Below, in pieces: positions 25,859 to 52,237 of a stretch of DNA of 64,000 nt. The notes under the pieces were generated by a model, which worked only from the letters and a program-made list of their open reading frames with translations, did not search any database and had not been told where the DNA came from. Source of the stretch: Lunularia cruciata (lineage: Eukaryota; Streptophyta; Marchantiopsida; Lunulariales; Lunulariaceae); contig OX419756.1 of NCBI GenBank assembly GCA_948567375.1, positions 3,415,001 to 3,479,000 of the forward strand. Reading direction: 5' to 3'. Within the stretch, counting starts at the first letter, position 1. Every line of letters starts with the position of its first letter. The translations under genes and the position numbers were made by a program.

Positions 25859-28800
25859 GTAATGATCAAGATCGTTTGCAACGGTGAACTCCATGATGAT
25901 AGTCTTGTAACTTTGCTGTCCTCTTTCAAGTTTGGGCCCGCCATTGCCACCGTGTTACACAACCTTTACTACTCAAAGCTACGTTCAACACTGGAGGGTC
26001 ACATTCCCAGGACGATACAGAATTTGGTCAGTTCGTCGCACGGAGATATAAACCAATCGCCGCCAATCCAGGCACTTCACTTGTGTTGTCTTTCAAAGCT
26101 AGCGTGGCTCTCCGCTCCTCGACAAGAGATTCAAGCATTCCCCGGTGCCATTAAGGCAGTGGTGAATTCCTACTGGCCTGATCATGAGGATTGTTTTGTC
26201 CTCTCCATTTACAAACTAGACACTTTGACTGGTTTGGCCGTGGACGCTGTAGCTCGGAAGAAAATAGGAGAAGTCAGTGGCGCCATTCCGAAGATGCTGT
26301 CTTTGATCCACAAGGAAAGCGGCGATATTGCTTCACAGGAGGCATTGATGCGAGTTCTGCAAAATTTGACAGCGGAAAATGAGTCGAATAAAAAGCAGAT
26401 TGTGGAACAGCATGGCGCTGTTGAAGGATTGATGAAGCTCTTGGATGGTGAGAAGAGCTCCAAGTTCCTTCAACATTTGGCATATACCCTAGGGAATGTG
26501 GCAACCGGAACCGAAGGACAGAAGAAAATAGGAGAAGTGAGTGGGGCCATCCCGAAGCTGCTGTCATTGATCCACAAGAAAAGCGGCAATATCGATCAAC
26601 AGGAGGCATTGATGGGAGTTGTGGAGAATTTGACAGGGGGAAATGAGTCAAATAGAAAGCAGATTGTGGAACACCATGGCGCTGTTGAAGGATTGGTGAC
26701 GCTCTTGGATGGTGAGAAGAGCTCCAAGTTCCTTCGACATTTGGCGTGTACACTAGGGAATGTGGCAAGCGGAACCGAAGGAAAGAAGAAAATAGGAGAA
26801 GTGAGTGGGGCCATCCCGAAACTGCTGTCATTGATCCACAAGAAAAGCGGCGATATTGCTCAACAGGAGACATTGATGGGAGTTCTGCAGAATTTGACAT
26901 GGGGAAATGAGTCAAATATAAAGCAGATTGTGGAACAGCATGGCGCTGTTGAAGGATTGGTGAAGCTCTTGGATGGTGAGAAGAGCTCCAAGTTCCTTCA
27001 ATTTTTGGCATATACACTAGGGGATGTGGCAATCGGAACCGAAGGAGAGAAGAAAATAGGAGAATTGAGTGGGGCCATCCCGAAGCTGCTGTCATTGATC
27101 CACAAGGAAAGCGGGGATATTGCTTCACAGCAGGCATTGATGAGAGCTTTGAGGAATTTGACAGGGAGAAATGAGTGAATATTAAGCAGATTGTGGAACA
27201 GCATGGCGCTGTTGAAGGATTGGTGAAGCTCTTGGATGGTGAGAAGAGCTCGAAGTTCCTTGAACACTTGGCAGTTACACTAGGGAATGTGTCAATCGAA
27301 GGAGCGCAGAAAATAGGAGAAGTCAGAGGGGCCATTCCGAAGCTGCTGTCATTCTTCCACAAGGAAAGCGGGGATATTGCTTCACAGGAACCATTGATGA
27401 GAGCTTTGAGGAATTGGACAGCGACGCATGAGTCAAATAGAAAGCAGATTGTGGAACACCATGGCGCTCTTGAAGGATTGGTGAAGCTCTTGGATGGTGA
27501 GAAGAGCTCCAAGTTCCTTGAACATTTGGCATTTACAGTAGGGAATGTGGCAATCGGAACCGAAGGAAACAAGAATATAGGAGAAGTCAGTGGGGCCATT
27601 CCGAAGCTGCTGTCATTGATCCACAAGGAAAGCGGGGATATTGCTTCACAAGAGGCACTGATGAGAGCTTTGAGGATTTTGACAGGGGAACATGAGTCAA
27701 ACAGAAAGCAGATTGTGGAACACCATGGCGCTGTTGAAGGATTGGTGAAACTCTTGGATGGTGAGAAGAGCTCCAAGTTCCTTGAACATTTGGCAGCTAC
27801 GCTAGGGAATGTGGCATTAGGAATCGAAGGAGCGCAGAAAATAGGAGAAGTCAGTCGGGCCACTCCGAAGCTGCTGTCATTGATCCATAAGGAAAGCGGG
27901 GATATTGCTTCACAGGAGGCATTGATGATAGCTTTGACGAATTTGACATCCAGCCATGAGTCAAATAGAAAGCAGATTGTGGAATGCCCTGGCGCTGTTG
28001 AAGGACTGGTGGATCTCTTGGATGGTGAGAAGAGCTCCATGTTTCTTATACGTTTGGCATGTACACTAGGGGATGTGGCAACGGGAATCGAAGGAGCGCA
28101 GAAAATAGGCGAAGTCAGTGGGGCCATCCCGAAGCTGTTGTCATCGATAGAGAAGGAAAGCGGGGAGAATGTTTTACAAGAGGCATTGATGGTAACTTTG
28201 TGCAATTTGACCTGGAGCAATGGGTCGAATCAAAAACAGATAGTGGAACACCCTGGGGCTGTTGAAGGACTGGTGAATCTCTTAGATGGTGAAAAGAGCT
28301 CCATGTTCCTTGAACTTTTGGCACGTATACTAGGGAATGTGGCAATCGGAACCGAAGTAAAGAAGCAAATAGGAGAAGTCAATGGGGCCATTCCAAAGCT
28401 GCTGTCATTGATTCTCAAAGAGGACGGTAGTCCAGAATCACAAGAGGCACTAATGAGAACTTTACGACAATTAGCCATGTTGGAGGCTAATCGGATCCAG
28501 ATCATGGAGTATACTGGCGCTCTCGAGGGATTAGTGAAACTTATTGATGTTGGTAAGGGTTATGGGTACCTGAACGAGGTTTGTGGGACAATATATTCCC
28601 TGGCTATTGAAAGTGAAGGTGGGATGAGGACAGGGAATGTTCCTGGAGCTATTTCCAAGATGATATCACTCGTCTTGCAAGATGATGGGAATATCCCATA
28701 TAACGTTCAAGAGACATTAGTGTTAGCCTTGCAGCGTTTAATGGTGATCAAGGGCAATCGAAGGCAGATTCTAGAAAATCGGGGAGCACTAGAGGGATTG

Positions 28801-29013
28801 TTGCAACTCGTGGATAGTTGGAAGAGCTCTCGGTACCTTGAAGGGGTGGCATCCATATTGGCTACAGTGGCAATCGACGCTGAAGGTACCCAGTACGCAG
28901 GAGTAGTTTCTAGAGCTATATCCAAGCTCGTAATCTCCGTCTTACAAGATAACGACAGTGGTGTATTTGACTCGAAGTTGGTAGAATCGTTGCTTGTTCG
29001 TTGCTTAATCTAG
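25859..29013 (+). pseudogene. Exon: armadillo repeat array, C-terminus
   Basis: The acceptor TGCGCAG is at 25852-25858. About 130 residues of helical sequence lead into ten to eleven near-identical 88-residue units (each two ARM repeats). The unit starts are near 26258, 26522, 26786, 27050, 27307, 27571, 27835, 28099, 28363, 28624 and 28891. Typical unit text is GEVSGAIPKLLSLIHKESG, HGAVEGLVKLLDGEKSS and LGNVA-GTEG. The last two to three units are more diverged and end at a TAG (29011-29013). Around 27174-27178 one base is missing compared with sister units (GAGTGAAT for GAGTCAAAT), creating a stop and a frame change. By family, ARM arrays form a superhelix for protein binding. Confidence 0.85.
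26258..28890 (+). repeat. 264-bp in-frame tandem repeats coding for paired ARM repeats
   Basis: Eight of the ten spacings are 264 bp or differ only by the one-base loss and a two-codon deletion (257 bp between units 4 and 5). The others are 261 and 267 in the older 3' units. DNA identity between inner units is high, so they spread by recent unequal exchange. The array makes a spurious long open frame on the other strand. Confidence 0.85.
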
Positions 29014-31779: not shown

Positions 31780-32395
31780 CGAGTAAATCATCATTCATTT
31801 AATATGATATTATCCTCTATTGTAGTGGTATGGTGATACCTGATATGTCATCTATATCTATCATCTCAATTACGCTCAGATTTATATCCCAGCTCCTCAA
31901 CATCAATCTCTTTCTACACTTGTCATGATAACTAACAACAATACGATGATCATCACATAGTGCATAGAGAGAATGAATCATAATTTTAGGAGATAAAAAA
32001 GAGTATAGGCATGTGATCAAACTATAGGCTTATCATCATTACCCTTGTCTTCAATCATCCAAGTCAAAATAAGGATTCCAAATATAAATACCATCTATTT
32101 TGCATTTTGTATTAGTATATTTTTTCTTATCCACATTCCAAGAACTGTAAGTAATGTATGCACTGATTTTCTCTATGGATAAAACATGTTGTTAAAAATA
32201 ATCCAACTTGCCTGATATCATACCATAAACTCTATGAGAAATATTCACTAAAAAGGAGAAAAATACAAGAAGAAATAAAAAATTCTTTATAATCAAATCC
32301 CCAAAATTCAAAAGTATTGAAATGTTAAAGTGATTTTGAAATAAAAATTCTATTTTAAAATGATAAAAAAATAAATATAGATTATTAAAAGCATT
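31780..32395 (+). repeat. Repeat A, copy 2, left part
   Basis: This shares ATTATCCTCTATTGTAGTGG, the CATCTATATCTATC region and TTTATAATCAAAT with the other copies. It is cut at AAAAGCATT (32387-32395) by the minus-strand gypsy element and resumes at 45267 with CTCAAACATAAAATGATGA. The uninterrupted arrangement is seen at about 55360. Confidence 0.75.
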
Positions 32396-32500
32396 GTTGA
32401 GCGTATATACATTGCTACACAACATACATCGCTGTCAACATCATACACTATAGAAACACAACTCACACATAAGTCATACATAGACTCTAAAGTGTCAAAA

Positions 32501-32944
32501 TAATCAGATTGCTTACCACTCTCAACTCAACTCAGATTAGTACTCGATCTATCACTCTATAAACTGCCAACAACTGGGCATTGATTACAATCATACCACA
32601 CCCACTCAAGCATAGAGAATCTAGATGACGCTCGCCGACCTCTATCCACCATAGCTAGGAACTCGAAGGCTCAACATTAGAGAAGTGAGCTCTCTAGAGT
32701 TGCACTTTGAAAGTATACCCCATGGACTCGAGCTAGGTCTGAACACTAACGGTCCTGCTGACGGCACACTCGATGGTGTGAACGGTGCAAAGTGACGGTG
32801 GGCCCCACTATGAAGTCAGTACCCTGAAAACCAAATTTGACTGTCAGAAAGTAGTCTCTGAGAAACTGCCAAAATAACTCTAACTACTATCACTAGAAAT
32901 CCAGTGTCTAAGCATCTAGATGCGGCACTACAAATGGCGTGACA
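32501..32944 (-). repeat. 3' LTR of the methyltransferase gypsy element
   Basis: This matches 44824-45266 almost throughout. On the minus strand it starts TGTCACGCCATTTG. Its far end lacks the terminal CA of the other LTR (TAATCAG preceded by AAAA). It is flanked on both sides by direct copies of an element-internal 80-95 bp segment (32401-32496 and 32953-33032, landmark CTATAGAAACACAACTCACA), an unusual arrangement. Confidence 0.8.
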
Positions 32945-33203
32945 GTTGTCATGCGTATATACATCGCTGTCAACATCATACACTATAGAAACACAACTCA
33001 CACATAAGCCATACATAGACTCTAAAGTGCCACAATCGCCCCCCTAGCTGGCGGTTAGGCCCCTCTAACTCCAGATAGCCATCTACTCTAAGTATATGGT
33101 ATACCCTCTCATGGGCAAAGATCAAGAGGCCGGGTGCTATGGAGCCCCATCGTTAGTTGCCTATCTGCAATCTATACCATATAAAGAATGAACTAGCTAT
33201 AGG

Positions 33204-33360
33204 TCAAGTATATCTAGGACATAACCACTGTCCCTGAGGAACCACCGTGAGGGGAGGAGTCATACATGCCATATGCCATCCTCTCAAACAACTATCACAC
33301 ACTAACATAGTAGCAGCTCCACCAAAAGAGCCACATAACATACACCTCAAGCCTGCACGT
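33204..33360 (-). pseudogene. PHD-finger module downstream of gypsy integrase
   Basis: The minus frame 33204-33503 encodes a short beta-rich linker (VLEGHDGVVWKDHMRNCVPC) and then CMLCGSFGGAATMLVCDSC, LRGWHMAC and QWLCPRY. This is the Cys4-His-Cys3 pattern CX2C-X11-CX2C-X4-HX2C-X14-CX2C with the last Cys changed to Tyr (33210-33212). By family, PHD fingers read histone H3 tails or coordinate protein contacts. Its place after the integrase is where chromoviruses carry a chromodomain, so a role in choosing integration sites is a reasonable inference. A RING-like variant is less likely given the W two residues before the late Cys. Confidence 0.75.
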
Positions 33361-33875
33361 ACAAGTGCCAAGCTTGGGTCCATAGTACCATCAATGTTTG
33401 GGAGGTGGCATGGCACACAATTGCGCATATGATCCTTCCAAACAACACCATCATGTCCTTCTAACACAAGGACTCTAGATGGCAAAACCTTGCGCACTCT
33501 CAAGATAGTACGACCTGTAGAAACATCAAGTGTCGTTGGTGCTATCTACTGTAGATATACATAGTCGCCTGGATGAAATCAACGGATCGAGGGTCTATAA
33601 CCTCCTCCTCAAATGGTAGCATAGCGTAAAGTATCTCTATGCTGAGCAATGGCCAAGTTCTCAAAGGCCATCGGCATCACTCTCCGAAAGATCTCTACCC
33701 ATTGAGAACATGCGCTCATCCATACATCGGGGTCATCCAAGTCCAACACTATAGTAGCATCTTGACGAATGGCTGCAAGTAAATCAAGATCTCATCCATA
33801 GAGTAGAAAAAGAAGGAGAGAAGGATGCTAAGGAGGCTTACCGGCTGAACCGATAGCCCATGGCCAACCAAGATC

Positions 33876-34450
33876 TCAATCTCCCAAGTGGCCCCTCTGC
33901 AAACCATAATTTTGCAATCCTCTCTTCACCGTCTGAACCACTCTCTCTGCTAAGCCATCTGCCTCAAAGTGATCTCGGGATGTAGTATGATGATCAATCA
34001 AAGCCTTGTCACACAAGACCTGAAGCTCCCCCAAGAACTCTATACCTTGATCAATCACAACCTCAACTAGTGCACCAAAATGACTAAGAACTCGATCCAG
34101 GAATGAGTAAGCTGTCCCTTCACTAGACTTGTCAAGAAGTGCCACCAACTCAATCCACTTGGAGAAGTGCTCCACCATCACCAAAACATAGCGATGATGT
34201 CTCACAGTCAGCGGTAAAGGTCCGACAAAGTCCAAACTCCAACGATAACCCAATCCTATGATAGGTAATGGGTGTAACTGTGGCGTAGGAGCATTGAATG
34301 ATGCTCTAACTTGGTCACAAACCACACATCTGGCAACAAACTACTGTACCTGGTCTGCATACCATGCCACCAATAATGACTTTGGAGTAAGCTATATGTA
34401 TGCTTTACTCCAAAATGTCCTAGCTCCTCATGAGCATGACGGACCAACTA
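33876..34450 (-). pseudogene. Integrase of the methyltransferase gypsy element
   Basis: The zinc-binding start HEELGHFGVKHTYSLLQ (34256-34447) and the Cys pair in VVCDQVR are present. The core (33876-34325) has SLDFVGPLP (first Asp), VVIDQGIEF (second Asp) and EADGLAERVVQTVKRGL (Glu region). This is a DDE integrase that inserts the element DNA. The frames are shifted between the zinc-binding and core regions. It continues towards the PHD module across several stops. Confidence 0.85.
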
Positions 34451-34890
34451 TGGTCTCTGTGATGGAAGTGGTACTACTCGCACTCTACCATCCTCCCATA
34501 CACACAAAAGGTGTCTACCCTCCAATCTAAACCGTCTGGCTTGCTGAACAACACGGTCTCTCTCCTTGGCTCCAGCTATGCCACCCACAACACTAGTGCA
34601 AAGATAGTCCATCACTAAGACATCATCATGAATGTCTCGCTGAACTGTACCAATATCTTCACTCTCTGGATCTGTGACCTCAATAACTCCTCTTGTATGC
34701 GCTAAGAGAGATACCACCAAAGCCTCTACAAATATACATAGAAAGGTCGATGCATGCCAACCTGGCACCATCTCCTCATCTGTCTCACCATGCCAACGTG
34801 CTCTGGTCTGATCCTGCTGGCTGGGACATAGGTTTCTACTCAACCCATCTGCATCACGGTTCACCACTCCAGGTCTGTGAACAACCGTGA
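34448..34890 (-). pseudogene. RNase H to integrase connection region
   Basis: The frame holds NRDADGLSRN, the conserved end of gypsy RNase H (usual N-x-A-D-x-L-S-R). A long linker follows. No separate domain is recognised. Confidence 0.65.
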
Positions 34891-35330
34891 AATCATACTC
34901 CTATAAAATCAGAGCCCATCGTGCAAGCTTCCCTGAAAGCTTGTTGGACTCCATCAACCACTTCAGTGGCTAATGATCAGTGATGAGAGTGAAGGGGTTA
35001 CCAAATAGGTAACATCAGAAATGTGCTACTGCCCAAACTGCTGCCAAGCACTCTCCCTCATATGAACTATACTTTGCCTCCGTTGAATTGTTGGAGCGAC
35101 TAGCATAGACCATCACAAACTCCTTCCCCTCATCATCATGTTGGGTGAGCACCGCTCCAAGCCCCAATATACTCCAATCAGTGTGAACCTGAAATGGTCG
35201 TCCCTTGATTGGTCTCCTCAAAATAGGAGTAGATGTCAACCTCTCCTTGAGCTCTACAAAAGCTCTCTCTTGCTCATCTCCCCAACACCGCTCCTATGTA
35301 AGCTTGGTCAGCTTCGTCAAGGCCTTGGCA
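34890..35330 (-). pseudogene. RNase H of the methyltransferase gypsy element
   Basis: The frame 35015-35239 has PILRRPIKGRPFQVHTDWS (first catalytic Asp in HTDWS), GLGAVLTQ and YASRSNNSTEAKYSSYEGE (catalytic Glu). Nonsense codons interrupt it: TGA in HF*CYL (a CGA to TGA change), and TAG in TDH*PLKW and LIL*EYDF. Confidence 0.8.
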
Positions 35331-35439
35331 ATGGCACTAAATCCTCTAACATAGCGGCGATAGAAGTTTGCCAACCCAAGGAATGCTTGCACTCTGCTCA
35401 CATGCGTAGGCCGAGGAATACGTGCAATAGCCTCCACCT

Positions 35440-36060
35440 TGGTTTACTGGACACCAAGTCCTTCGGGGTAGATAGTGTGACCCAAATACTCAACCTGCTC
35501 GTGGAAGAACCTACACTTCCCAGGATGTAATTTGAGTCCATGAGATCTCAACCTCTCAAACACCTCCAACAACAGTCTCTCATGCTCCTCCACAGTTGTG
35601 CTATAAACCAAAATGTCATCAATATAGCACCAAGTAAAATCCAATCGAGCTAGGATCCTATCCATGACCCTCTAGAACTCAGCAGGAGCGTTCTTTAACC
35701 CAAATGGTAAGAACCTCCACTGATATAACACATCCCTGCCGTGAAGATCAATAGCCCAAAATGCTATCTTGGACTTATCCTCCTCCCTAATCGGCAACTG
35801 ATGATATCCCGCTCGAAGATCCAAAGTACTGAAGACCTTTGCATGTCCAATCGCATCAAAAATCTCCTATGGTGTTGGCATGGCATACCAATCAGCCCTG
35901 GTCTATTGGTTGATAGGACGGTAATCTCCACACATCCGCTTATCTGTATAGTTGCCATGCATATCCTTCTTGGCTGGCATCACTGTCGCTGATGCATACT
36001 CTCCATGTGAAATCTCCACCAAACCAGCCTCAAAAAGGTCACTACTCCGGGTTTGAATCA
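35440..36060 (-). pseudogene. Reverse transcriptase of the methyltransferase gypsy element
   Basis: Recognisable blocks are ASATVMPAKKD and RMCGDYRPIN (motifs 1-2), FSTLDLRAGYHQLPI (motif A), FLPFGLKNAP (motif B) and CYIDDILVYS (motif C with both catalytic Asp, frame 35444-35665). Stops replace Gln in NQ*TRADW, TP*EIF, EF*RVMDRI (35672-35674) and VQ*TKVEA. Otherwise the palm is intact. Confidence 0.85.
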
Positions 36061-36509
36061 ATATTCTCTCTATATCACTATATCGATAAGGATGTCAGAA
36101 AACTGGTGTGTCGCTAGTCAGCTCAATCCATATACCAGGTCCCTTTAGAGCACCCAAATCCTTCATACTGAAGGCAAAACAACTCGTGTGACTCCTCAAG
36201 AACCTCCAAACCCTCCGTCTTTCCTCTCCAATAAGCTTGGGTCCAAGATCTGGCTCCCAAGTATCCTCTATAACTGTAGTAGGAGTGGAAGACGTACTGA
36301 CTGACTACTACACTGGGCCCTTGGGAGCAATAGTGTCATGCTCCCAACCACTAGAGGTCCCAACCTCTGTGTGAAAAACTCCCTCCACTTTGGTTGCAAG
36401 CTCCACACGTCTGGCTGCATCCCATGTGGACCAAGGGTGTAATCCAAGTAGCCCACGCTCACCTGGATGGACTCCAAGTAGACCACTCTCCCTAGTAGCT
36501 ACTGGATGT

Positions 36510-37610
36510 GTCCCAAGAATACCATGTCCACTCAATCCATCGCCCCCAGCATGTGCCTGAATTGTCTTGATAGGCACATGGCTCACAAGTGTCCGAGTGG
36601 TGATGCCTATCAAGCGCATCTTACGCTACTCTGCCAAGCCAAGGCTCACAATCCAAGTCAAACAGTTCAGGTCCATAGCCTGACCTAACACTTGACGCCT
36701 AGATGCCTCTGACACTATTGGAACAGCGTTAATACCGGTGCAAAAACCTATCACCCGCTCTCTCTCATCAGCGTTGGGCTCCACTAATTGTTGTAACTGT
36801 GAGTTCCAAACAAGTCCAAGTCCTCCCTCTTGAAAAGCATGAGAGCTTGGGAAACTCATGAGTGTGGGAAATGCGGTTCTAGGCTATCCAACTAGGTTCA
36901 CCATTGCCATAGGTGACTTATCAGCCACTACCATTGTCTGAGACTAACGCCCAACATCCAAGATATCATCAACAAGAATGTGGTCCAGTCACTGAATCCC
37001 ATCATAAGCACGTTGTAGAACCTCTCTGGGTAAGAGGTTTGTCCACCAAAGATGAAGACGATGAGCCCGTGATCCCACTCTGGCTGCATCTAACAATACA
37101 ATAGGTCCCATCCAAGAATGGACATGATGTGTACTTGTCACCACTCTAGTGCGAGAATCACCCATCAAAGGACCGTTCTCCAAAAGGTAAGCTGGAGAAA
37201 TAGACTGATGAACCTAGAGATGTCGTAGTATCTGTAACATCTCCTAAAACACACCAGAACAAGGATCTTGAAGACCCAAACCGCGGCCCGCACGTGTATG
37301 TCCCGGACATGGCCATCTAGAAATCACCAAGTGAATAGGCCCATGTCTCTCTAGGTCATGCACCCCCAGTAAGGAAATGTCTCATGGTAGGGCCTTCTGG
37401 TAACCTCTAACTGCTGACATTGGTAATAACTCCGGATACCGATAGGCCAAGTGTGCCACATGATGTAGAGAGACTTGCCTAGCAGTCTCATCTCTCTCTA
37501 CATACAAGTACTTCTGTACTCATATACCCGCATGTAACACCATAGCTAGTCGGAACCCACCAAATAACTCCAATAGGCATATCCCCTTTACTTGATACTG
37601 CCAAGCAATG
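36510..37610 (-). pseudogene. C5-cytosine DNA methyltransferase, copy 1 (motif I damaged)
   Basis: It has the same domain as copy 2. The catalytic motif IV, RWPCPGHTRAG, is at about 37283-37315 and is followed by RGLGLQDP. ENGPLMGDSRTRVVTS (motif VI region), HRLHLWWTNLL (motif VIII) and GQAMDLNCLTW (motif X region) are present. In motif I two codons are missing (about 37550-37556), so LFGGISTGLAM reads LFGGFRLAM. The SAM-binding loop is likely destroyed. Stop TAG at 37244-37246 is shared with copy 2. Confidence 0.85.
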
Positions 37611-37689
37611 AGTGTGGTATCCAGAGATGTCCAAGCAATCGCCTCTAGAGGCTCATCCTCACACTCATCTCCTTATGGTACGAAGGCTC

Positions 37690-38670
37690 CACTCCAAGCC
37701 TACTGCACCAACTGATCTGCATGATGCTGCAATGCCTCCTCTGAACTCCACAATGGAACATCTAAGGTGGATGGAACAATCCCACTTGTACACCAAAGCC
37801 GAGTGATCTCCTCTGGTACCGGAGTATCCTCTGCATGGATGTTCCCTTCCAACAAGTCATCAGGCCAAGTAACTGCACCACTGAAAGCTAAAACTGATGC
37901 TGCCATGGTCCAGGACTGTAGTGAGCCAAGATTGCCACTACTGAAGCGTACTGGTAGGCGACATACCCGTCCCTCACCAGACTGCCAACCAGGTCTATAA
38001 GAGGTTGTCTCCTCCCAATAGTCAATGCTGAAACCCATGGGGTATAACACTGTTCCCCCAACTAGCACATCATATGACTCAACTATCATCACAATAGCCT
38101 GAGCTCTCACCACTAAGCTATCAGTTGGATGACCAAGCTGAACTTGGACAACAAGCTCTCCACGTGTGATGTACTATGTCGAACCATCACCTAGAGATGT
38201 TTGGATCTGAAATGGACACCTCTCCACATCGGTCTTCCGTAACTCTAGACCGACAACTGCAGCCTTCCCCAACATAAGGGGCTGTGCACCAGAGTCTAAC
38301 AAGACTCTATGTGGTGTATAGACCTTCCTTGAAGGTCCCACTAAACAAAAATCCCCCTCTGGTTATCCAATAGGACAACACCAGGTGTAAACCGCGCTCT
38401 CTCAAAGGCCGGTCTAGTTGGCAACTCCTCCAGTTTAGCCGCTACTGCCTGCCATAAACCACTGGTCGCTGAACGGATCCCATGCTCCTCAACCATGTCA
38501 GGTCCACTACCAACCACCTCTGCTCTAGTAGTAGGAACTGCACCATCCCTACTTTCACACAACGTGGCAGCCAACTGGAATACTAGGGCTGGGTCAACTC
38601 CCAATGTAAACATATCACTGGCCGAAAACAAAGGATGCCGTATAATCAGCTGAGCCGCCCCCAACATCAT
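37690..38670 (-). pseudogene. Aspartic protease region, copy 1
   Basis: The minus strand carries LDSGAQPLMLGK with the catalytic DSGA at 38285-38296. QTSLGDGST and ESYDVLVGG follow as in retropepsins of gypsy elements. The N-terminal frame 38341-38670 is a conserved region of the element without a known domain. A TAG replaces Gln after DGST. A Trp-rich segment (GAVTWPDDLLEG) links it to the methyltransferase. Confidence 0.75.
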
Positions 38671-38829
38671 GCTAGACTAAGTCTATGTAGTAGCAGGTGG
38701 CTGACTAGCAGGTAGTCCATCATGTACTCCATCACCACCTACCACACCTGCACTGGGACGTCTAGGAACCATGGATGTCGTCTAGGAACCATGGATGTCG
38801 TAGACCACTCTCCCTAGTAGCTACTGGAT

Positions 38830-39930
38830 GTGTCCCAAGAATACCATGTCCACTCAGTCCATCGCCCCCAGCATGTGCCTGAATTGTCTTGATAGGCACA
38901 AGGCTCACAAGTGTCCGAGTGGTGATGCCTATCAAGTGCATCTTACGCTGCTCTGCCAAGCCAAGGCTCACAATCCAGGTCAAACAGTTCAGGTCCATAG
39001 CCTGACCTAACACCTGACGCTTGGATGCCTTTGACACTACTGGAACAACGGTAATACCAGTGCAAAAACCCATCGCCCGCTCTCTCTCATCAGCGTTGGG
39101 CTCCACTAACTTCTGTAACTGTGAGTTCCAAACAAGTCCAGGTCCTCCCTCTTGAAAAGCATGAGAGCTTGGGAAACTCATGAGTGTGGGAAATGCGGTT
39201 CTAGGCTGTCCAACTAGGTTCACCATTGCCATAGGTGACCTATCAGCCACTACCATTGTCTGAGACTAACGCCCAACATCCAAGATATCATCAACAAGAA
39301 TGTGGTCCAGTCATTGAATCCCATCATAAGCACGTTATAGAACCTCTCTAGGTAAGAGGTTTGTCCACCAAATATGAAGACGATGAGCCCGTGATCCCAC
39401 TTTGGCTGCATCTAACAATACAATAGGTCCCATCCAAGAATGGACATGATGTGTACTCGTCACCACTCTAGTGCGAGAATCACCCATCAAAGGACCGTTC
39501 TCCAAAAGGTAAGCTGGAGAAATAGACTGATGAACCTGGAGATGTTGTAGTATCTGTAACATCTCCTAAAACACACCAGAACGAGGATCTTGAAGACCCA
39601 AATTGCGGCCCGCACGTATATGTCCCGGACATGGCCATCTAGAAATCACCAAGTGAATAGGCCCATGTCTCTCTAGGTCATGCACCCCCAGTAAGGAAAT
39701 GTCTCCTGGTAGGGCCTTTTGGTAACCTCTGACTACTGACATTGGTAATAACTCCGGATACCGATAGGCCAAGTGTGCCACATGATGTAGAGAGACTCGC
39801 CTAGCAGTCTCATCTCTCTCTACATACAAGTACCTCTGTACTCGTATACTCGCATGTAACACCATAGCTAGTCCGGTGCTGATCCCACCAAACAACTCCA
39901 ATAGGCATATCCTCTCTACTTGATACTGCC
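38830..39930 (-). pseudogene. C5-cytosine DNA methyltransferase, copy 2
   Basis: The frame 39566-39901 reads ELFGGISTGLAMVL (motif I, SAM binding), YLYVERDETARRV (motif II, acidic residue), GPIHLVISRWPCPGH (motif IV with the catalytic Pro-Cys, 39620-39637), then RAGRNLGLQDPRSG. Further down are ENGPLMGDSRTRVVTS (motif VI region), a target-recognition-like stretch, HRLHIWWTNLLPRE (motif VIII, QxRxR-like) and LGQAMDLNCLTW (motif X region). The order I-IV-VI-VIII-X, with FGGIxTGL and the Asp-Leu-Asn-type end, is closest to Dnmt3-like enzymes. It would methylate C5 of cytosine in DNA using SAM. Three or so TAG codons in place of Gln (for example 39566-39568) inactivate this copy. Confidence 0.88.
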
Positions 39931-40009
39931 AAGCAATGAGTGTGGTATCTAGAGGTGTCCAAGCAATCGCCTCTAGAGGCTCATCCTCACACTCATCTCC
40001 TGATGGTAC

Positions 40010-40998
40010 GAAGGCTCCACTCCAAGCCTACTGCACCAACTGATCTGCATGATGCTACAATGCCTCCTCTGAACTCCACAATGGAACATCCAAGGTGGAT
40101 GGAACAATCCCACTTGTACTCCAAAGCCGAGTGATCTCCTCTGGTACTGGAGTATCCTCTGCATGTGTGTTCCCTTCCAACAAGTCATCAGGCCAAGTAA
40201 CTGCACCACTGAAAGCTAAAACTGATGCTGCCATGGTCCAGGACTGTAGTGAGCCAAGATTACCACTATTGAAGTGTACTTGTAGGCGACATACCCGTCC
40301 CTCACCAGACTGCCAACCAGGTCTATAAGAGGCTATCTCCTCCCAATAGTCAATGTTGAAACCCATGGGGTATAACACTGCTCTCCCAACTAGCACATCA
40401 TATGACTCAACTATCATCGCAATAGCCTGAGCTCTCACCACTGAGCTATCAATCGGATGACCAAGTTGAACCTGGACAACAAGCTCTCCACGTGTGATGT
40501 ACTATGTCGAACCATCACCTAGAGATGTCTGGATCTGAAATGGACACCTCTCCACATCGGTCTTCCGTAACTCTAGACCGACAACTGCAGCCTTCCCCAA
40601 CATAAGGGGCTGTGCACCAGAGTCTAACAAGACTCTATGTGGTGTATAGACCTTCCTTGAAGGTCCCACCAAACAAAAATCCCCCTCTGGTTATCCAATA
40701 GGACAACACCAGGTGTAAACCGTGCTCTCTCAAAGGCCGGTCTAGTTGGCAACTCCTCCAGTTTAGCCGCTACTGCCTGCCATAAACCACTGGTCGCTGA
40801 ACGGATCCCATGCTCCTCAACCATGTCAGGTCCACTACCAACCACCTCTGCTCTAGTAGTAGGAACTGCACCATCCCTACTTTCACACAACGTGGCAGCC
40901 AACTGGAATACTAGGGCTGGGTCAACTCCCAATGTAAACATATCACTGGCCGAAAACAAAGGATGCCGTATAATCAGCTGAGCCGCCCCCAACATCAT
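40010..40998 (-). pseudogene. Aspartic protease region, copy 2
   Basis: The catalytic DSGA lies at 40613-40624, with the same flanks as copy 1. The upstream frame 40624-40998 (LFSASDMFTLGVDPALVFQL) joins gag. By family, the enzyme cuts the Gag-Pol polyprotein in the virus-like particle. Confidence 0.75.
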
Positions 40999-41010
40999 GC
41001 TAGACTAAGT

Positions 41011-42853
41011 CTATGTAGTAGCAGGTGGCTGACTAGCAGGTAGTCCATCATGTACTCCATCACCACCTACCACACCTGCACTGGGACGTCTAGGAACCAT
41101 GGATGTCGTCTGCAATGCCTCAGATAGCATGAAAGACTGGGGAAGTCTGACCTGTCTCCCAACCTCTCCTCTTTGTGGGTCCAACTCCACTAATGCTCCT
41201 CTAGGCTCTGGAGCACGTATTGCACTCCTAGTCACTGTTGCAGATGCATTCACTTGTGCTGCTCCGCACATGAAGTCCAAAGCATCTCTATCACCAGCAT
41301 ATGAGGTGGAAGCCTCAGCACCCAAATCTGATCTCCTCTGAGCAATGGCCATACTAGCCAATCTCTGCACCAACTGCTCAATCCGAGTAGCCATAGCTAT
41401 GTCAAAAGTAAGGGCAGGTACTGCACCCCTACTAGGTGTAGATCCTCTCCCACCACCTCTACCACCTTGTCCTCCATGAATTGGAGCTCCTCTACTACCT
41501 ACCATAGCAGCCCTACCACTCCGTAACTCTGGGTGTAGGTCAAAACACCGGTCACTAGTGTGACCAAATCTGTGGCAATGCTCACACTGCCTCTGTGCTG
41601 GCTGTGATGCACCAGAGGTATCAGGTCCGCTGCCCTGAGTACACTCTCTCTTATGGTGAGGTCCACCACAAGTCCAACAAGCAACACCACCACTCACTGG
41701 CTGCTGTTGACCCCAAAATGAGGGTAAGGGTCTAACTCCACTAGGCCTTCCACTCGCTCCATAGGATCTGGGCTGTCCACCTTGTCCTCAAAAACCAACT
41801 GGGCGTGGTGCACTCTGCTGCACTCTAGAAGAAGTCACAGCCGTGGATGAGATCTCCCTACCAAATCCAAATGTCACCACTCTCCACCATATTGAGCTCA
41901 ATACGCTCAGCCAAACCAAAGACTATTGCCAAAGTGGGCGAAGTAGCCTGCAACAACGTAGCATCACGAACTCTACGTTGCAACTCCTTGTCCAGTATCC
42001 CATACCAAAACTAGACTGCCTGGGCCTCAGAAACTCCCTGAGTGAAACTGATCAGCCACATCATGCGAGTGTATGCCTTGCGTAGGCTCTCTCCAGCCTT
42101 CCTCTGGAACTCCTACAAGCTCCTCAGCTTGTCAGTCCGCACTCCGTGGTAGTTCTGCCTCAAACATAGGAAGAACTCCACCATGGGGTTAAACCCCGAT
42201 ACCACACCACCTCCTGCAGCGGTACCTCCAATCGTAGTAGCACTATCTCCAGCTAGTGCACCTCCACTAGCTCCACCCACACTACTCGAGCTAGAACTCG
42301 TAGGCACAGCCGATCTACTCCTGGCCACCGAGCCTGAAGTGATGGAGACATAGTGTGGAGACCAATACTGTCTCCATAACTCAATCTCCTCCAAATGAGC
42401 TCTCCTGAACTCATGGTAGTCATCCATTGGCAGACCCTCCAAGTGCTGAAACAACCCCTTCCATGCCATGAAGGGCGTGAACAAAGTCGGGTTCCGCATC
42501 TGCTGCAGATCACACCAACTATCAAACTCTTGGATGAAGTCATCCAACTCAATGGTATCCACTGTACCAGAGTAACGCCTAGGGCCTTTGGAGGCCCCAT
42601 AAATCTCGTCCATGTCCCACAACAACAGTACGGACACACCAAGTGCACTCTCAACTGAATCAGCTCCTGTGTTGAACTCCAACTCAGAGTCAATCTCTTC
42701 CCTCACTGGGACCTGAGATACAAGCTGATACCGAGCACCACTCCGAGTAAACCCACTGCGTATTGTAGGGCTAACTCCTCTGGAATCTCCAAAGAACTCT
42801 GTCATGACAAAGTAACCACAATAGCAAACCCGAACCACCAACTGCAACCTCAA
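41011..42853 (-). pseudogene. Gag of the methyltransferase gypsy element, two zinc knuckles
   Basis: The frame 42113-42853 is the capsid part: TIELDDFIQEFDSWCDLQQ, FTPFMAWKGLFQHLEGL, FRRAHLEEIELWRQYW, then a Ser/Gly-rich spacer and FFLCLRQNYHG. After a broken stretch, 41011-41697 has CWTCGGPHHKREC (CX2CX3HX4C) and CEHCHRFGHTSDRCFDLH (CX2CX4HX4C), RNA-binding knuckles. Stops between them (for example AV*FWYG) again fit CAG to TAG. The start used is the Met at 42853, but the true start may be a little further in (MTEFFGDS). Confidence 0.8.
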
Positions 42854-43857: not shown

Positions 43858-44604
43858 TGTAATACTCCGAGGACAAGAGAAGAGAGAAAACACAGATTGC
43901 ACACTCAAACATTCGATGCCCCAAGGGAGCACCTTCTCTTTATTATATAGACAAAGAAGATCTCCTCCAAGGAAGCTCCACCATAGGATTAGGGACACAA
44001 ATAGGTGACATGTCAGCAAGCTCCATCCTTGGATTACTTACTTGGATGGGTGACCTGTCTGGTCTGGGTCCTATCTGGTTGGTCAAACAAGCTTTGACCG
44101 GAGGAAATCTTTTAGGGAATCTTCTTGTAGGAATCTCAGAATCACGTGAGTGAGGTACTGTTGGAAAGCTCTCGATGAGACAAAGCAGGGGGGAGGAAGG
44201 CCAACCTTTCCTATGTTTGGGGGAGGGGGAGGGGAATCTGCACATTTTCAAGGCCTAACTCATTCGTTTAGGCCTCTAAAATTGCCTTCAAAGATTTCAG
44301 GCATATTTCGGTTCCTACTCTATTAGTAGAAGTCCTCTTTTGGTGATACCTCTTTCTGATCTATTTAGTCCATCATGTGTAACATCCTTCCAAATGTTAC
44401 CAAACCAATTCTCACCTTTAAATCATATGTCTAGCTATTGGTTCTAAGGTTCTCAAGTCTATTTCGGTTTCTACCCTATTAGTAGAAGTACTCTTTTGGT
44501 GATACTTCTATCTGATCTATTTTGACCATCATGTATAACATCATTCTAGATGTTACCAAACTGAATTTCACATCTAGATCATATGGCTAACCCTTGGTAT
44601 TACA
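43858..44604 (-). mobile_element. Solo LTR, gypsy family C, with perfect target duplication
   Basis: On the minus strand it starts TGTAATACCAAGGG and ends CGGAGTATTACA (747 bp). AACCA flanks it on both sides (43853-43857 and 44605-44609). It contains the duplicated ATATGATCTAGA-type unit of this family. It lies within the leader of the methyltransferase element, so it is younger than that insertion. Confidence 0.88.
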
Positions 44605-44823: not shown

Positions 44824-45266
44824 TAATCAGATTGCTTACCACTCTCAACTCAACTCAGATCAGTACTTGATCTGTCACTCTATAAACTGCCAACAACTGG
44901 GCATTGATTACAATCAAGCCACACCCACTCAAGCATAGAGAATCTAGGTGACACTCACCGGCCTTTGTCCACCATAGCCAGGAACTCGAAGGCTCAACAT
45001 CAGAGAAGTGAGCTCTCTGGAGTTGCACTTTGAAAGTATACCCCTGGACTCGAGCTAGGTCTGAACCCTAACGGTCCCGCTGATGGCACACTTGACGGTG
45101 TGAACGGGGCAAAGTGACGGTGGGCCCCACTGTGAGGTTAGTACCCTGAACACCAAATCTGACTGTCGGAAAGTAGTCTTTGAGAAACTGCCGAAATAAC
45201 TCTAACTACTATCACTAAAACTCCAGTGTCCGAGCATCTAGATGCGGCACTACAAATGGCGTGACA
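44824..45266 (-). repeat. 5' LTR of the methyltransferase gypsy element
   Basis: On the minus strand it starts TGTCACGCCATTTG and ends GCAATCTGATTACA (to 44822). It is the partner of 32501-32944. LTR divergence is visible by eye but modest. Confidence 0.82.
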
Positions 45267-47589: not shown

Positions 47590-47650
47590 AGATAAAGCGG
47601 CCGTAGGACGGGAAACTGTCACGTATGGTTCTCAATTGGCGGCCAGGTGG
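47590..47650 (+). ncRNA. Group II intron domains V and VI (nad7 intron)
   Basis: GCGGCCGTAGGACGGGAAAC with the returning arm GTCACGTATGGTTCT forms a domain V hairpin. A second hairpin (GGCGGCCAGGTGGGAAACC) follows before the nad7 exon. The same structure is at 58765-58850. Confidence 0.75.
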
Positions 47651-47663
47651 GAAACCCGTGGTC

Positions 47664-47905
47664 GACCATAACATCCTAGCAGATGGTGTCACTATCATAG
47701 TTACTCAAGATATTATGTTAGGTATTCAAAATATCTTAGGCGCTGTAAAATAAATTTCTCATATAAATTCTGTTGGGTTTAGCTCCAATTTTTTCACTTT
47801 TTCATTTTTTCATCTATCTTGTACGGTTTGGTAGGGTCTTTTCATCTTTCGTGTTTTTACGTGGTCGCCCTTTTAGATATTGTGTTTGGAGAGGTCCTCG
47901 AACTG
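47664..47905 (+). pseudogene. nad7: nad7 3' exon (NUMT), interrupted by retro-insertion
   Basis: LADGVTII lies before the insert and DIVFGEV after it, matching the C-terminal end of NADH dehydrogenase subunit 7 (usual MLADVVTIIGTQDIVFGEV). The exon follows directly on the group II intron end. An R2-like tail at 47715-47874 splits it. The uninterrupted copy is at 58849-58911. The usual stop after FGEVDR is lost. Confidence 0.85.
47715..47874 (+). mobile_element. R2-like 5'-truncated copy inside nad7
   Basis: It includes the last codons of the element ORF (AATATCTTAGGCGCTGTAAA), the stop region and the 3' tail to GTGGTCGCCC. AGATATT flanks it at 47708-47714 and 47875-47881. The other nad7 copy (58879) is uninterrupted. 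Confidence 0.9.
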
Positions 47906-48984
47906 AACATGAATGCCTTTGGGCCAACAAGCCTAGTTGGAAAATTGCTTGTCTTTATATCTGACAGCGAAGTTTATCAAGGGGACACTTGGAGATCGGC
48001 ATCCACGGAGCACCGCCGGCTAAACGACCTTCAAGCGACCCTGAGAAAACTACAGTCGTGTAGCACGATGCCAGATCAACATCTATGATCCCGAATACAC
48101 TACCAACGCCCCAGTACGGCCTCTTCTTTTCCCTTAACAGCATTGACGGAATTCAAGGAGTCCTTGTAACTTACGGCGCTATCGACTCTTTTTCGTGCCA
48201 TTCAGGCTAGCTCATAAGCTAGGAAACAGGCTCACCTTGCAGAGGAGCAATAGTAACATGGCTTACCCGGGAACAGCAAGTTTCAATCAGAGAACCGTGG
48301 GGCTGCCACCGCTAAGACGCTCTAAAAGAGCCGAAGGTAGGGCTGCCTTTACCATCATTCGCTATGCCGGGGTAAAGCTGAGAAGAGAATGCAAAAAAAT
48401 ATATGTTTTTTCTTTTCGCTTTCTCATACACCCCCGGAAAAGGCTGATGCTTTACGCGGAGGGAAACCAACTAAAACCCAACCCAAACCTTGCATGAGTT
48501 TTTTTACTGGACGGCGTGCGGGGGAGCAGCGGGAGAGTGTGGAGACGGGAGAGGAGAGGGAGAGACGTGAGACAACTTTGATGATTTTTGAGTGTTTTCT
48601 AGCAGGTAGCATTTGAGTGAATAGTCAATTCTCTTTGTTTTTCAATTTCGGTTCCATTGGTACTTAGATTTAAGACTATGGATAATGGAATAGAAAGTTA
48701 TGATGATTTTTAGCTTTTTTAGGGTTGAAAGTGATCATAATACATTGAGAATGATGGGTTGGAAATTTTCATTTCTAATCTCTTGGTTTTCATGATTAAG
48801 TTCAATGTGAATTTAATTTGAAAATTTTGGAGATGAAAATTGAAAGTTATGAAAGTTTATAGATTTTAGAGTTTAGAGAGATTATTTCTTATGTGGGTTG
48901 GGATGTGAGGGGTTGTGGTTTTGCAGATATGGGGAGATATGGAGAGGAATATCATGTGTTACTATCACTATTCTTGTGCTAGCC

Positions 48985-50415
48985 ATGGCTACACCTTCCC
49001 ATGTGGGGTCGCCTAGAGCGGGTCGGGATACACCATGCCCGGTGTGTCGCCGACGCTTTACCTCGCAAGGGGTAAAGACCCATGTGGGAAGGATGCACAA
49101 GGACTATGATTGGACCACTTGGGATGCTCACGTGAGACGAGCGACCACATCGACTGCAGTGACACTCGGGATTACGCACGTTTCTTCTATACCTTTGTTG
49201 ATCGTTCCAGGGATACCGACCGAGTCGTGGGAGTGGTTAGTTTCTCAGGCAGGTTGCATTTTGGGGTTATTTGAGACTAGTTTTCCATGTCCACGTCTAT
49301 TCCATAGGCTACCCCGCACACTCCATGATGAGGCTAGATAGGCTTTTTACCTACCACTAGATCGTTTAGCACATGATCCCTTGGACGAGTTAGCGTGGTT
49401 CCTATTCCTCCTACTCCCTCGATGGTGTCTTTGTTATGCTAGAGGGGGACGCGCGGGGCATATAGAGGTGGCGGCTAGATTTTGTCGATTTTGAGCGGAG
49501 GATTGGGCAGTGCTTCAGGAGAAGTCTGTTAGGGCTATACGAGTTAGGAGACAAGCATCGCCACAGGATACCACACATTCCACTCGATTACGACGATGTA
49601 GGACATTGGGTCTGGCGGGAGAGTTTAGTAGAGCAGCACGAGCGCTACACCCTTTGTCTATAGCGAGTCCTACTGATGAGACCATCTCTTCCCTACGCTC
49701 ATTGCATCCTATAGCAGTAGAGGGACTACCACTAGAGGTCTTAGATTATCACCCTGAGCAGCCTTTATGTCTTGAAAGGTTGCTATTTGCACAAGCATTG
49801 TGCACTGCCCCTCGCCTTTCCTCAGGAGGCTTGTCAGGGATGGTTTATGAGCACCTTAGAGATTGCTTCCAGGCATATGATCCTTCTAGTGGTTTTACCG
49901 AGTTGTTTCAAGTGGCTGCAGCAGTAGCGAGAGGAGACATTCCTATGTCTATTAGTCGGGTCTTAGGTGCTAGTCGACTTCTTGTGATTGAGAAGGACAC
50001 GGGAGGCATTAGACCGATTGCTATTGGAGAGATCTTTTTGTGTTTGGTCAGTCATACCATTGTCCATTAGCATCGTTCTCACTTTTGACAGCACCTTAGT
50101 CCACATCAGTTTGGAGTAGCTACACCTGGAGGATGTGAGGCTATATCTCTAAGCATTAGAGCACTCCTAGATATCCATCCGGAGTGGGTCGTCCTACAGG
50201 TGGATGTTGAGAACGCTTTTAAGAGCGTCTCACGTGCATCCATCTTTAGAGAGCTTAGGGAGGCTGGTGGATCATTGGCGAGTCTCATTCCTTTTGTGCG
50301 GTCTTTTTATGGCTCTCCTGCTTCCCTTTACTACCAGCATGGTGGTTCACAAGAAGGAGTTACCGTCTTGGAGTCACCTGTTGGTACACAACAGGGAGAT
50401 CCTTTGGGGGGGGCC
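48985..50415 (+). pseudogene. R2-like ORF, first part: C2H2 finger and RT motifs
   Basis: The ATG at 48985 has a good context (GCCATGGCT). CPVCRRRFTSQGVKTHVGRMH is a C2H2 zinc finger (CX2C-X12-HX4H), as at the N-terminus of R2 proteins, where it binds target DNA. RT blocks follow: LLVIEKDTGGIRPIAIGE (motifs 1-2), VLQVDVENAFKSVS (motif A, catalytic Asp) and SPVGTQQGDPLGG (motif B). In-frame stops are near 49339, 49492, 50067 and 50088. The frame ends at the G run. Confidence 0.85.
50406..50413 (+). other. G8 run with reading-frame change in RT motif B
   Basis: Motif B (GDPLGG) is read in one frame and motif C (LADDTHIVGP) in the next. The switch is at a run of eight G. The old copy at the window start has GGGGTGGG, also eight bases, at the same place. 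Confidence 0.75.
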
Positions 50416-52149
50416 CTTATTTGCCATGGCTCACTTTAGAGCTCTCCTATCTACTACTTTGGCCATGCCAGGTTGTGTATTTCCTCCCTTGGCAGATGAT
50501 ACACACATTGTAGGCCCTATAGATCAGATTAGGCAGGCCTTTGACTACTTGACTACCGAGCTACATCTAGTAGGCTTGAGAGTGAAGGTGTCAAAGTGTA
50601 GGGCATGGTCCCCTTTAGGTATCCCTCCCCACCTTGAGCTTCCAGAGGGGTGTATCACATCAATAGATGGACTTTGTGTTCTTGGAGTGCCAGTAGGATC
50701 GGAGGATTTCATCACACACTTCTTGGACGCTGCCCTTGCAGAGGATGTTCTCCATGTGGATGACCTTCCATTACTAGGAGATCCACAAGTGGCATTTGGT
50801 ATACTCTCTTGGAGTATTGCTCGTTCACCATCCTACCTCATCCGTATAGTTCCCCCCTCATCGTCCTTCCTATCACGTCTGACAGCATTTGATAGGAGGA
50901 TTATGGGAGTCTTTGGTGATATTGGACCAGGGACTTTTGAGTGTGTGACAGGGGATTTGGCACGTAGATAGATGGCTCTACCAATCTCATGTGGTGGGGT
51001 TGGCTTGCTTTCTATGGAGGAGATGGCACCTATAGCATTTTTGGGTAGTTGGGCTCTCTCGGCACCCCTACTTGCCTCTCGTTTTGTGGTTGCTGATAGG
51101 CCGGTTTTGGAGACTTATGTGACAGAGATGGAAGGACGACCCTTTTCTCTCCAAGTGTTATTGCGGCAGACGAGAGATAGTCCATCCCCACGAGCACGAG
51201 AGGGTTTTCCATTGTTTGCTTCACTATTGTCAGATTGGACTAGAGGTCTACATTCTTCCTTGATGGAGCGACAGTGTGAGCATACGCTACATTCTCTCTT
51301 AGTTGACTCATCCATTCCTCAAGCTACTAGAGCACGTCTACGCTCTTGCTCCGGCAAGGGTGCAGGCTCGTGGATCCTAGCTCGACCATGCATTAGGGCT
51401 TTCCGACTCGCGTCGGCTACTTTCTCTACATCGATGAGGTTTTGCCTAGGTTTGGTCCACCCATCTGCATCTTCACTACTCACTTGTGAGTGTGGTTCTA
51501 CACTAGATGCAGCGGTGGTCCACATGACATGGTGTTCTTTTGGAGGACAGAGGATAGCTACACATGATGCCATTAGAGACATAGTGCTTGCTATGGCACG
51601 AGAGAGTGGATACTTAGCTTGGAGGGAGTGTTCGTATGCATTGCAGACAACACATGTCAGGGCAGACTTATACTTGGTCCGAGATGATCAGGTGACAGTA
51701 GCGGATGTCATGGTCATGCACCCTACACGGGATACAGTTTTGGAGGGAGTGATTACCCATCCCTCTGGATGGGCGGCGAGTGCAGCAGCAGGTCGCAAGG
51801 TCTCCCAGTTTAGGGGCATCCAGCAAGGTCACCTCTTTGTTCCTCTAGCGTTGGAGTTATATGGAGCAATGGACAAGGCATTTGACACATTTGTCAGGGA
51901 GTGCGCGAGTGCTTATCATGTTAGGAGTCAAGGGGTACCATTCTCACTCTCATACTTTGTAGCTTACTTTAGACAGCGTGTGTCCATTGCTCTACAAAGG
52001 GTAGTGGCTGGTGCAATCCAGAGGAGAGCAATCACATTAGGTGATGTTTCTTCGGATGCTCCAGTTGTGTGTAGACCGTACGACTTGCATAGCCTGGATA
52101 TCTTAGGTGCGGTAGGGCAGATTTCTCATACAGAGTCTATTGGGGCTTA
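50414..52149 (+). pseudogene. R2-like ORF, second part: RT motif C, thumb and restriction-like endonuclease
   Basis: PLADDTHIVGP holds the two catalytic Asp of RT motif C. After a stop at 50969-50971 the same frame continues for 392 codons. LTCECGSTLDAAVVHMTWC is the CX1C...HX3C zinc site before R2-type endonucleases. THDAIRDIVLA, VRADLYL and VADVMVM correspond to the RHD and PD...D active-site strands; here the usual Pro-Asp is Ala-Asp. GRKVSQF and FVPLALELYGAMDKAFDTF are typical of the end of this nuclease fold. It nicks the target to prime reverse transcription. Confidence 0.8.
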
Positions 52150-52237
52150 GCCCCATGTTACCTTTTTTGTCTCTCCCTTGTATGGCTTGATGGGGTCTTC
52201 CCATCCTTCATTTTTCCTACGCGGTCGCCTTTATCTT
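52150..52237 (+). other. 3' tail of the R2-like element
   Basis: GGGGCTTAGCCCC is a short hairpin directly at the stop, followed by a T/C-rich stretch, GGCTTGATGGGGTCTTCCC and CGGTCGCC. This segment alone is found in all the short insertions of the window, so it is the probable RT recognition signal. Confidence 0.75.

Follow-up and report, generated by a model that had tools for sequence, protein, structure and literature searches.

Does a retrotransposon in a land plant carry its own cytosine methyltransferase, and what would it do with such an enzyme? The question was raised by a 64,000-nucleotide stretch of the Lunularia cruciata genome (the window; assembly GCA_948567375.1, contig OX419756.1, forward-strand positions 3,415,001 to 3,479,000), in which a sequence-only reading had proposed a Ty3/gypsy element bearing a C5-cytosine DNA methyltransferase (DNMT). 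The proposal was borne out, with relatives of the domain matching the methyltransferase family. Pfam, tblastn and repeat comparison delimited a single Ty3/gypsy element on the minus strand, from 45266 down to 32395, with the parts in the order repeat A1, Gag, protease (PR), DNMT, PR, DNMT, reverse transcriptase (RT), RNase H (RH), integrase (INT), PHD finger and repeats B1, A2 and B2. Its anatomy is almost certainly as listed below. With a probability of roughly 0.55, we read it as a dead copy of a partly intact Ty3/gypsy family with split repeats, in which a DNMT3-like enzyme stands in the Gag-PR open reading frame (ORF) and would methylate the element's own cDNA. The earlier reading was right on the main point and missed the split repeats, the PHD finger, the leaky stop and the dead state of the window copies.

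44824..45266, minus strand: repeat A1, the element 5' end, starting TGTCACGCC; direct repeat with A2
40897..42196, minus strand: Gag/nucleocapsid region, frameshifted, CCHC knuckles seen by eye; tblastn segments 42196-41882 and 41919-40897 with a genome copy as query, 88-89% identity
36478..41111, no strand assigned: 2.3-kb tandem duplication, 38800-41111 against 36478-38783, 96.6% identity over 2312 nt
40214..40710, minus strand: aspartic protease region, duplicate 1; tblastn 88% over 40687-40214
38939..39916, minus strand: DNMT domain copy A, from motifs, protein search and tblastn
37886..38382, minus strand: protease region, duplicate 2; tblastn 90% over 38359-37886
36614..37588, minus strand: DNMT domain copy B, from motifs and tblastn
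36305..36310, minus strand: decayed leaky stop, TAG TAG, by comparison with TAG CAG in 9/10 genome copies
35297..36268, minus strand: reverse transcriptase; tblastn 92% to a genome copy
34457..35287, minus strand: RNase H; Pfam RT_RNaseH_2 6.9e-28 at 35293-35015, tblastn 91%
33360..34456, minus strand: DDE integrase, frameshifted; Pfam rve 6e-10 at 34340-33876, tblastn 84-91%
33213..33353, minus strand: PHD finger, integrase C-terminus; Pfam PHD 7.2e-10, tblastn 96%
33037..33049, minus strand: presumed polypurine tract AGCTAGGGGGGCG, its role judged from position
32947..33036, minus strand: repeat B1; direct repeat with B2, 96% over 78 nt
32501..32944, minus strand: repeat A2; direct repeat with A1
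32395..32500, minus strand: repeat B2 and element 3' end, set by comparison with genome copies

The DNMT copies in the window

Copy A carried motifs I (LLELFGGISTGL), IV (RWPCPGH), VI (LLENGP), VIII (RAHRLHIWWTNLL) and X (GQAMDLN). Copy B had lost two codons of motif I, leaving LLELFGGFRLAM, and kept the remaining motifs. The claim that both copies encode all five motifs therefore held for IV, VI, VIII and X, and for motif I in copy A only; the domain length was about 320 residues, not the 360 proposed. Both copies were dead, with 4 (A) and 7 (B) in-frame stops. Three of these stops, read from the translations, sat at the same place in both copies, showing that A and B are not independent evidence and that the PR-DNMT block decayed first and was doubled later. 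The catalytic motif read PCP in the window copies, with the Cys kept, and PCQ in all 28 full-span copies fetched from the genome. The placement claimed for the domain, between protease and RT, was confirmed in the window, and the order was the same in 10/10 fetched element copies.

The copy-A translation, with X at the stops, matched 200 proteins at E<=0.01 (best 1.7e-139, 68% identity, 100% query coverage), a result strong enough to exclude chance resemblance. Relatives matched the methyltransferase family, which removed the objection that no family match might be found. The profile check suggested for the window translations gave a match only among the relatives: copy A reached E=0.083, under the cut-off, and copy B had no match. 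Pfam likewise missed the DNMT in the window ORFs, and the family-level search alone called it. Pfam alone on the window would have given a false negative.

Abundance of the family in the Lunularia genome

The assembly comprised 565.8 Mb in 74 contigs (565.6 Mbp is the genome size given in PMC12885004), and the window lies on a 76.6-Mb contig. This nuclear size makes the 'mitochondrial background' of the earlier reading misleading; the land-plant setting was supported, also by named DNMT relatives in Marchantia, Riccia, Calypogeia and Sphagnum. A protein search of the genome gave 111 scored matches with near-full query span at 72-74% identity, from 13,360 first-look candidates. Open frames reached 1448 amino acids (aa), and a 1428-aa frame recurred. 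Thirty copies were fetched; 28 spanned the DNMT domain, and in 9 of these 28 the domain was stop-free. Exact words were counted 803 times for DNMT, 1422 times for INT and 1949 times for the A start across the whole genome, with 0 for reversed controls. In Lunularia the family is abundant, and part of it is still intact.

Ten genome copies were chosen for long open frames. All ten showed PR-DNMT-RT-RH-INT-PHD, with Gag detected in nine, indicating that the DNMT is not a separate insertion, the other objection raised in advance. In an unpicked set (DNMT 24-mers on contig C1 below 35.08 Mb, n=63), 34 were followed on their own strand, 2 to 4.5 kb downstream, by the integrase 24-mer, which lay at exactly 2949 nt in 17 of them; the chance expectation was about 0.004 per site. 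The window repeats A1 and A2 were 92.6-92.8% identical over about 444 nt (32/443 aligned sites differed). Seven of eight other copies had A1/A2 identities of 96.7-99.3% and one older copy had 90.0%, showing that the window insertion is old relative to seven of the eight. At G000:C6:41209500-41225700 (L029/L030), one copy sat inside the A repeat of another, with a 4-bp duplication. Ty3/Gypsy bursts account for most of the increase in Lunularia cruciata genome size (PMC9985172), and the word 'methyltransferase' is absent from the main text of that paper.

ORF layout and the stop after the DNMT

The coding sequence was divided into ORF1 (Gag-PR-DNMT), an in-frame UAG-CAR-YYA stop and ORF2 (RT-RH-INT-PHD). 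In nine of the ten copies, the DNMT ORF ran about 100 residues beyond the domain and closed at TAG CAG CCA, with RT following in the same frame; in the tenth (L030), a frame break within the DNMT left no such stop in the frame that was read. A related element, L002 (CADCWO010000201.1, 9285 bp; DNMT 51-54% identical), had the context TAG CAA TCA. Both contexts conform to UAG-CAR-YYA, known from tobacco mosaic virus as a leaky stop. The term CAR-YYA is used in one retrotransposon paper. If the stop leaks here as it does elsewhere, its position after the DNMT would put the enzyme at Gag level, above RT and integrase, and we consider such expression probable. The layout thus suggests both how much enzyme is made and where.

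ORF2 of L002 matched RVT_1 (4.3e-31), RT_RNaseH (1.8e-38) and rve (1.2e-13) in Pfam, and no tyrosine recombinase family was found in the same scan at E<=0.001. A chromodomain was not listed in Pfam scans of the window ORFs or L002; a PHD finger stood at the integrase C-terminus instead. It resembles PHD fingers of chromatin proteins such as CHD4, KMT2C/D and KDM5B.

Selection and mutation in the copies

In the family alignment, the catalytic Cys was kept in 123/126 sequences, the motif VI Asn in 160/162 and the motif VIII Arg in 163/181. Pooled dN/dS was 0.456 for DNMT (36 pairs, nine open copies, dS 0.008-0.066), 0.385 for RT (10 pairs, five copies) and 0.607 for INT (6 pairs, four copies), indicating that the three domains appear to be under similar restraint in these few, young copies.

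Transitions made up 115 of the 134 differences between A1 and A2 and fell on 43/332 CG, 39/473 CHG and 33/1225 CHH sites. All 28 stops in 25 DNMT copies fit a C-to-T change on either strand. Transitions per site in the DNMT domain were 0.114 (CG), 0.094 (CHG) and 0.031 (CHH) in 12 disjoint pairs from the 25 copies; the RT values were 0.109, 0.066 and 0.007 (four disjoint pairs, nine copies). A distant Gypsy family served as control, and one inspected copy of it (L025) had no DNMT match beside it. Its values were 0.272, 0.185 and 0.039 (five pairs). Since the control shows the same excess at CG and CHG, ordinary plant methylation of the copies accounts for the spectrum, which is silent on the element's enzyme.

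Relatives and origin of the DNMT

Motifs I, IV, VI, VIII and X stood in unrearranged order with the catalytic Cys, and the DNMT fold was recovered by structure comparison within Foldseek's top 1000. In a tree of 48 rows, with long branches flagged and P0155 (Closterium, degenerate) and L001 dropped, the element DNMTs from Lunularia, Marchantia, Calypogeia and environmental samples formed one clade (41 rows, 100/100), and the window copies grouped with other Lunularia copies (11 rows, 100/98). Five host loci (L003, L055, L004, L053 and L005) encode methyltransferases: by their motifs, two are multi-exon genes of DNMT3 type and two are DRM-type genes with permuted motifs, and one is an exon that we take to be CMT-like. 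Its two DNMT3 genes and two DRMs formed another clade with human DNMT3A (97/89), and the element clade fell outside it.

Of 7,999 candidates scored against the integrase-PHD part, 438 were relatives at E<=1e-10; the 120 of these that were listed included Marchantia, Haematococcus, Volvox and Chromochloris (identified by the label Chrzof1). Other bryophytes carry relatives of the family, and green algae apparently do too. Two long-protein searches were pooled for a layout census of 155 proteins. RT-RH-DNMT-INT-PHD was seen in 17, RH-DNMT-INT-PHD in 3, the fragment DNMT-INT-PHD in 23, DNMT-RT-RH-INT-PHD in 3 and DNMT-RT-RH-INT in 1; DNMT or integrase was unseen in the other 111. The gap between RH and INT was 562-759 residues in the 20 proteins with DNMT there and 116-350 in 43 without. 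The second layout, RT-RH-DNMT-INT-PHD, occurred in environmental elements (P0151, P0153, P0216, P0221, P0235 and others). P0216, from Volvox reticuliferus, is a DNMT-INT-PHD fragment fitting this layout, with a DNMT that a custom profile recognised but precomputed Pfam missed.

Quick trees placed the second layout and two untyped rows in a single DNMT clade (37 rows, SH-aLRT 99); among the integrases, seven of the first layout clustered (97), and P0272 (first layout) and P0243 (second) lay beside them. Three rows in these trees pair a DNMT ORF with an RT-INT ORF solely on equal size of the longest contig, and for some fragments the layout was assigned from the DNMT-INT distance. The pattern suggests one DNMT acquisition followed by a change of place in the polyprotein, which quick trees with long branches do not prove.

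L002 is filed under a cyanobacterial metagenome-assembled genome and is a eukaryotic retroelement with 127-bp identical ends; P0022, filed under Obscuribacterales, resembles it. Their presence in bacterial bins is likely contamination. L002 was the only match, a eukaryote-like contaminant, among bacterial genome contigs. Viral contigs held a single weak DNMT relative (25% identity) and no ORF2 relative, and phage C5 methyltransferases (202 records) were all below 60% identity, with 24-31% among the ten matches listed.

Split repeats and integration

Copies were laid out as A1 (~450 nt), coding region, polypurine stretch, B1 (~107 nt), two bases, A2 and B2 (~107 nt). The first 100 A-starts listed on C1 gave 26 same-strand pairs 8.9-9.7 kb apart, and the B junction preceded the 3' A in 21 of these and the 5' A in none. 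Simple long terminal repeats were ruled out, since B flanks A2 on either side but is absent next to A1; the repeats read A-coding-B-A-B instead of two complete identical units. The B1/A2 joint seen most often, GACA-GC-TGTC, forms a 10-bp palindrome, which also occurred in a non-coding stretch of L002 within ACGACAGCTGTCACG. The word GACANNTGTCACGCCATTTGTAG was found 918 times genome-wide, about 1:2 to the A-start words, a ratio that is indicative only as the word lengths differ. The element ended in TGTC..GACA, with exact 4-bp target duplications (by eye) in seven of eight copies with both ends seen.

The protein set and ends are thus gypsy-like and the repeats DIRS-like. In our reading, the copy unit, judged against the polypurine tract and the border of A1 with the coding region, would be B-A, and the integrase would join the element at the B/A border, so that a circular or permuted intermediate would be needed. 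No description of such a route with a DDE integrase was found for gypsy elements in the literature searched, as far as its texts were available. The combination of DIRS-like split repeats with gypsy integrase ends poses a replication puzzle.

Comparison with known systems

The retrotransposon-borne methyltransferases of dinoflagellates and charophyte algae named in the earlier reading are reported in PMC5890265. KnitGypsy-Dnmt3 of Klebsormidium nitens (de Mendoza et al. 2018, PMC5890265) combines a Ty3/gypsy domain set with an unrearranged DNMT3-type domain in the polyprotein and, per the Fig. 4 legend, repeats as in a DIRS retrotransposon. Against the text and legend of that paper, the Lunularia family has the same gypsy domains, DNMT and DIRS-type repeats. 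Ka/Ks < 0.2 was given there for the KnitGypsy DNMT. The Lunularia element differs in its bryophyte host, in a DNMT within a Gag-PR ORF ending in UAG-CAR-YYA and in the PHD finger on the integrase; compared by text alone, the two may not truly differ, and neither Gag nor PHD occurs in the main text of PMC5890265. No K. nitens sequence was identified by name among the listed DNMT matches. We judge the Lunularia family to be a form of the KnitGypsy-Dnmt3 kind, marked by a land-plant host, abundance, partly open copies, a DNMT in the Gag ORF, a PHD finger and split repeats. In PMC5890265 the Klebsormidium element is taken to have gained its DNMT independently, in a single charophyte lineage, whereas the present data point to an older and wider association. 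No DNMT-bearing gypsy element of land plants was found in the literature searched, a weak absence given that supplements and most subscription papers lay outside it.

SymbioDIRS-Dnmt3 and SymbioLINE-Dnmt of dinoflagellates are also retroelements with a C5 methyltransferase, and the DIRS form is likewise A-coding-B-A-B; however, their backbone is distantly related, with a tyrosine recombinase or endonuclease in place of a DDE integrase (PMC5890265). DIRS/PAT-type elements share the A-coding-B-A-B repeats, whereas the Lunularia family has a DDE integrase, TG..CA ends and 4-bp target duplications. The RT-RH-INT order with gypsy-type domains, the TG..CA ends and the short target duplication place it with Ty3/gypsy. 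Chromoviruses, which carry a chromodomain at the integrase C-terminus, share the gypsy backbone and a chromatin-reader module at that place; the Lunularia element has a PHD finger instead, together with split repeats and a DNMT. Animal DNMT3A/3B and plant DNMT3 are nearest in fold and sequence, with the same order I-IV-VI-VIII-X, but neither ADD nor PWWP was found in the L002 Pfam scan and the tree separates the clades.

Proposed mechanism and rival explanations

In the proposed mechanism, the stop after the DNMT would cause the enzyme to be made at Gag level, with a minority of chains reading through into RT and integrase. Many DNMT molecules would be packed per particle, where they would methylate the new double-stranded cDNA before or during integration. 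The PHD finger of the integrase may dock the complex on histone H3. New copies would then land already methylated and would not be met as naked foreign DNA, and host enzymes would afterwards maintain CG and CHG methylation. That the element's own cDNA is the main substrate is proposed tentatively, at slightly under even odds.

Several results weigh against this reading. Readthrough is predicted from motif and position only, and dosage at Gag level is not universal: DNMT preceded RT in one ORF in 4/155 long relatives and stood between RH and INT in 20/155. INT words exceeded DNMT words (1422 vs 803), and among the first 100 INT places on C1, 66 lacked a DNMT word, through a mutated word or a DNMT-less copy. 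The dN/dS values came from few young copies chosen for lack of stops, and the mutation spectrum, once set beside the control family, gave no evidence of self-methylation. KnitGypsy-Dnmt3 showed no activity in yeast, a result called inconclusive in PMC5890265.

That inactivity would suit a domain acting as a structural or nucleic-acid chaperone, or in RNA methylation, with DNA methylation not being what selection keeps, and the domain does adjoin nucleocapsid and protease. A merely structural role would need none of the conserved Cys, Asn and Arg residues, however, and we consider this explanation improbable. Rather less doubtful, though still unlikely, is methylation of host DNA in trans (for example where the element inserts, or at silencing and recombination loci) as counter-defence or self-restraint: the DNMT-type fold and motifs, the dosage supplied by high copy number and the PHD finger with its chromatin-protein matches all agree with it, whereas placement in the Gag ORF favours a location in the particle. 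The host's own DNMT3-type and DRM genes offer a source for recent capture by one element family, but the element clade (41 rows, 100/100) stands apart from them and from human DNMT3A, long branches being flagged, and capture is strongly disfavoured. The dead window copies, under the Pfam cut-off, could have passed for chance resemblance or a pseudogene without a functional family; this was refuted by open relatives in the same genome, with 9/28 DNMT domains stop-free and frames up to 1448 aa.

A broader reading joins these parts. One old lineage of element-owned DNMT would have resided in PHD-bearing gypsies of the green lineage since before the chlorophyte/streptophyte split (or would have passed between the two groups), shifting between two places in the polyprotein. 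In bryophytes it would be a particle component made at Gag level and acting on the cDNA there, and integration would rely on a DDE integrase and a palindromic B/A junction in an intermediate that is circular or permuted. As a whole this is speculative and rather doubtful; if true, a DNMT-bearing element had a share in the Gypsy bursts by which the Lunularia genome came close to doubling. Cytosine methylation is a main plant weapon against transposons, and here a large transposon family owns such an enzyme and keeps its active site. With many copies in a small, cultivable plant, the gain of a transposon from methylating DNA would become directly testable.

Other features of the window

A 156-bp unit (44281-44592, two copies at 80%) lay just inside A1 before Gag, with similar units elsewhere in the window. 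On the plus strand, 26257-29013 held a 612-aa open frame with repeats every 264 nt (88 residues), by eye of armadillo type, and 48877-52150 held several open frames with a zinc-finger-like start, by eye a decayed non-LTR retroelement. Many repeats were common to both window ends. Weak group II intron matches, all under the gathering score, were found at 1075-1255, 47597-47672 and 58773-58848, and are possibly organelle-derived inserts in a nuclear contig.

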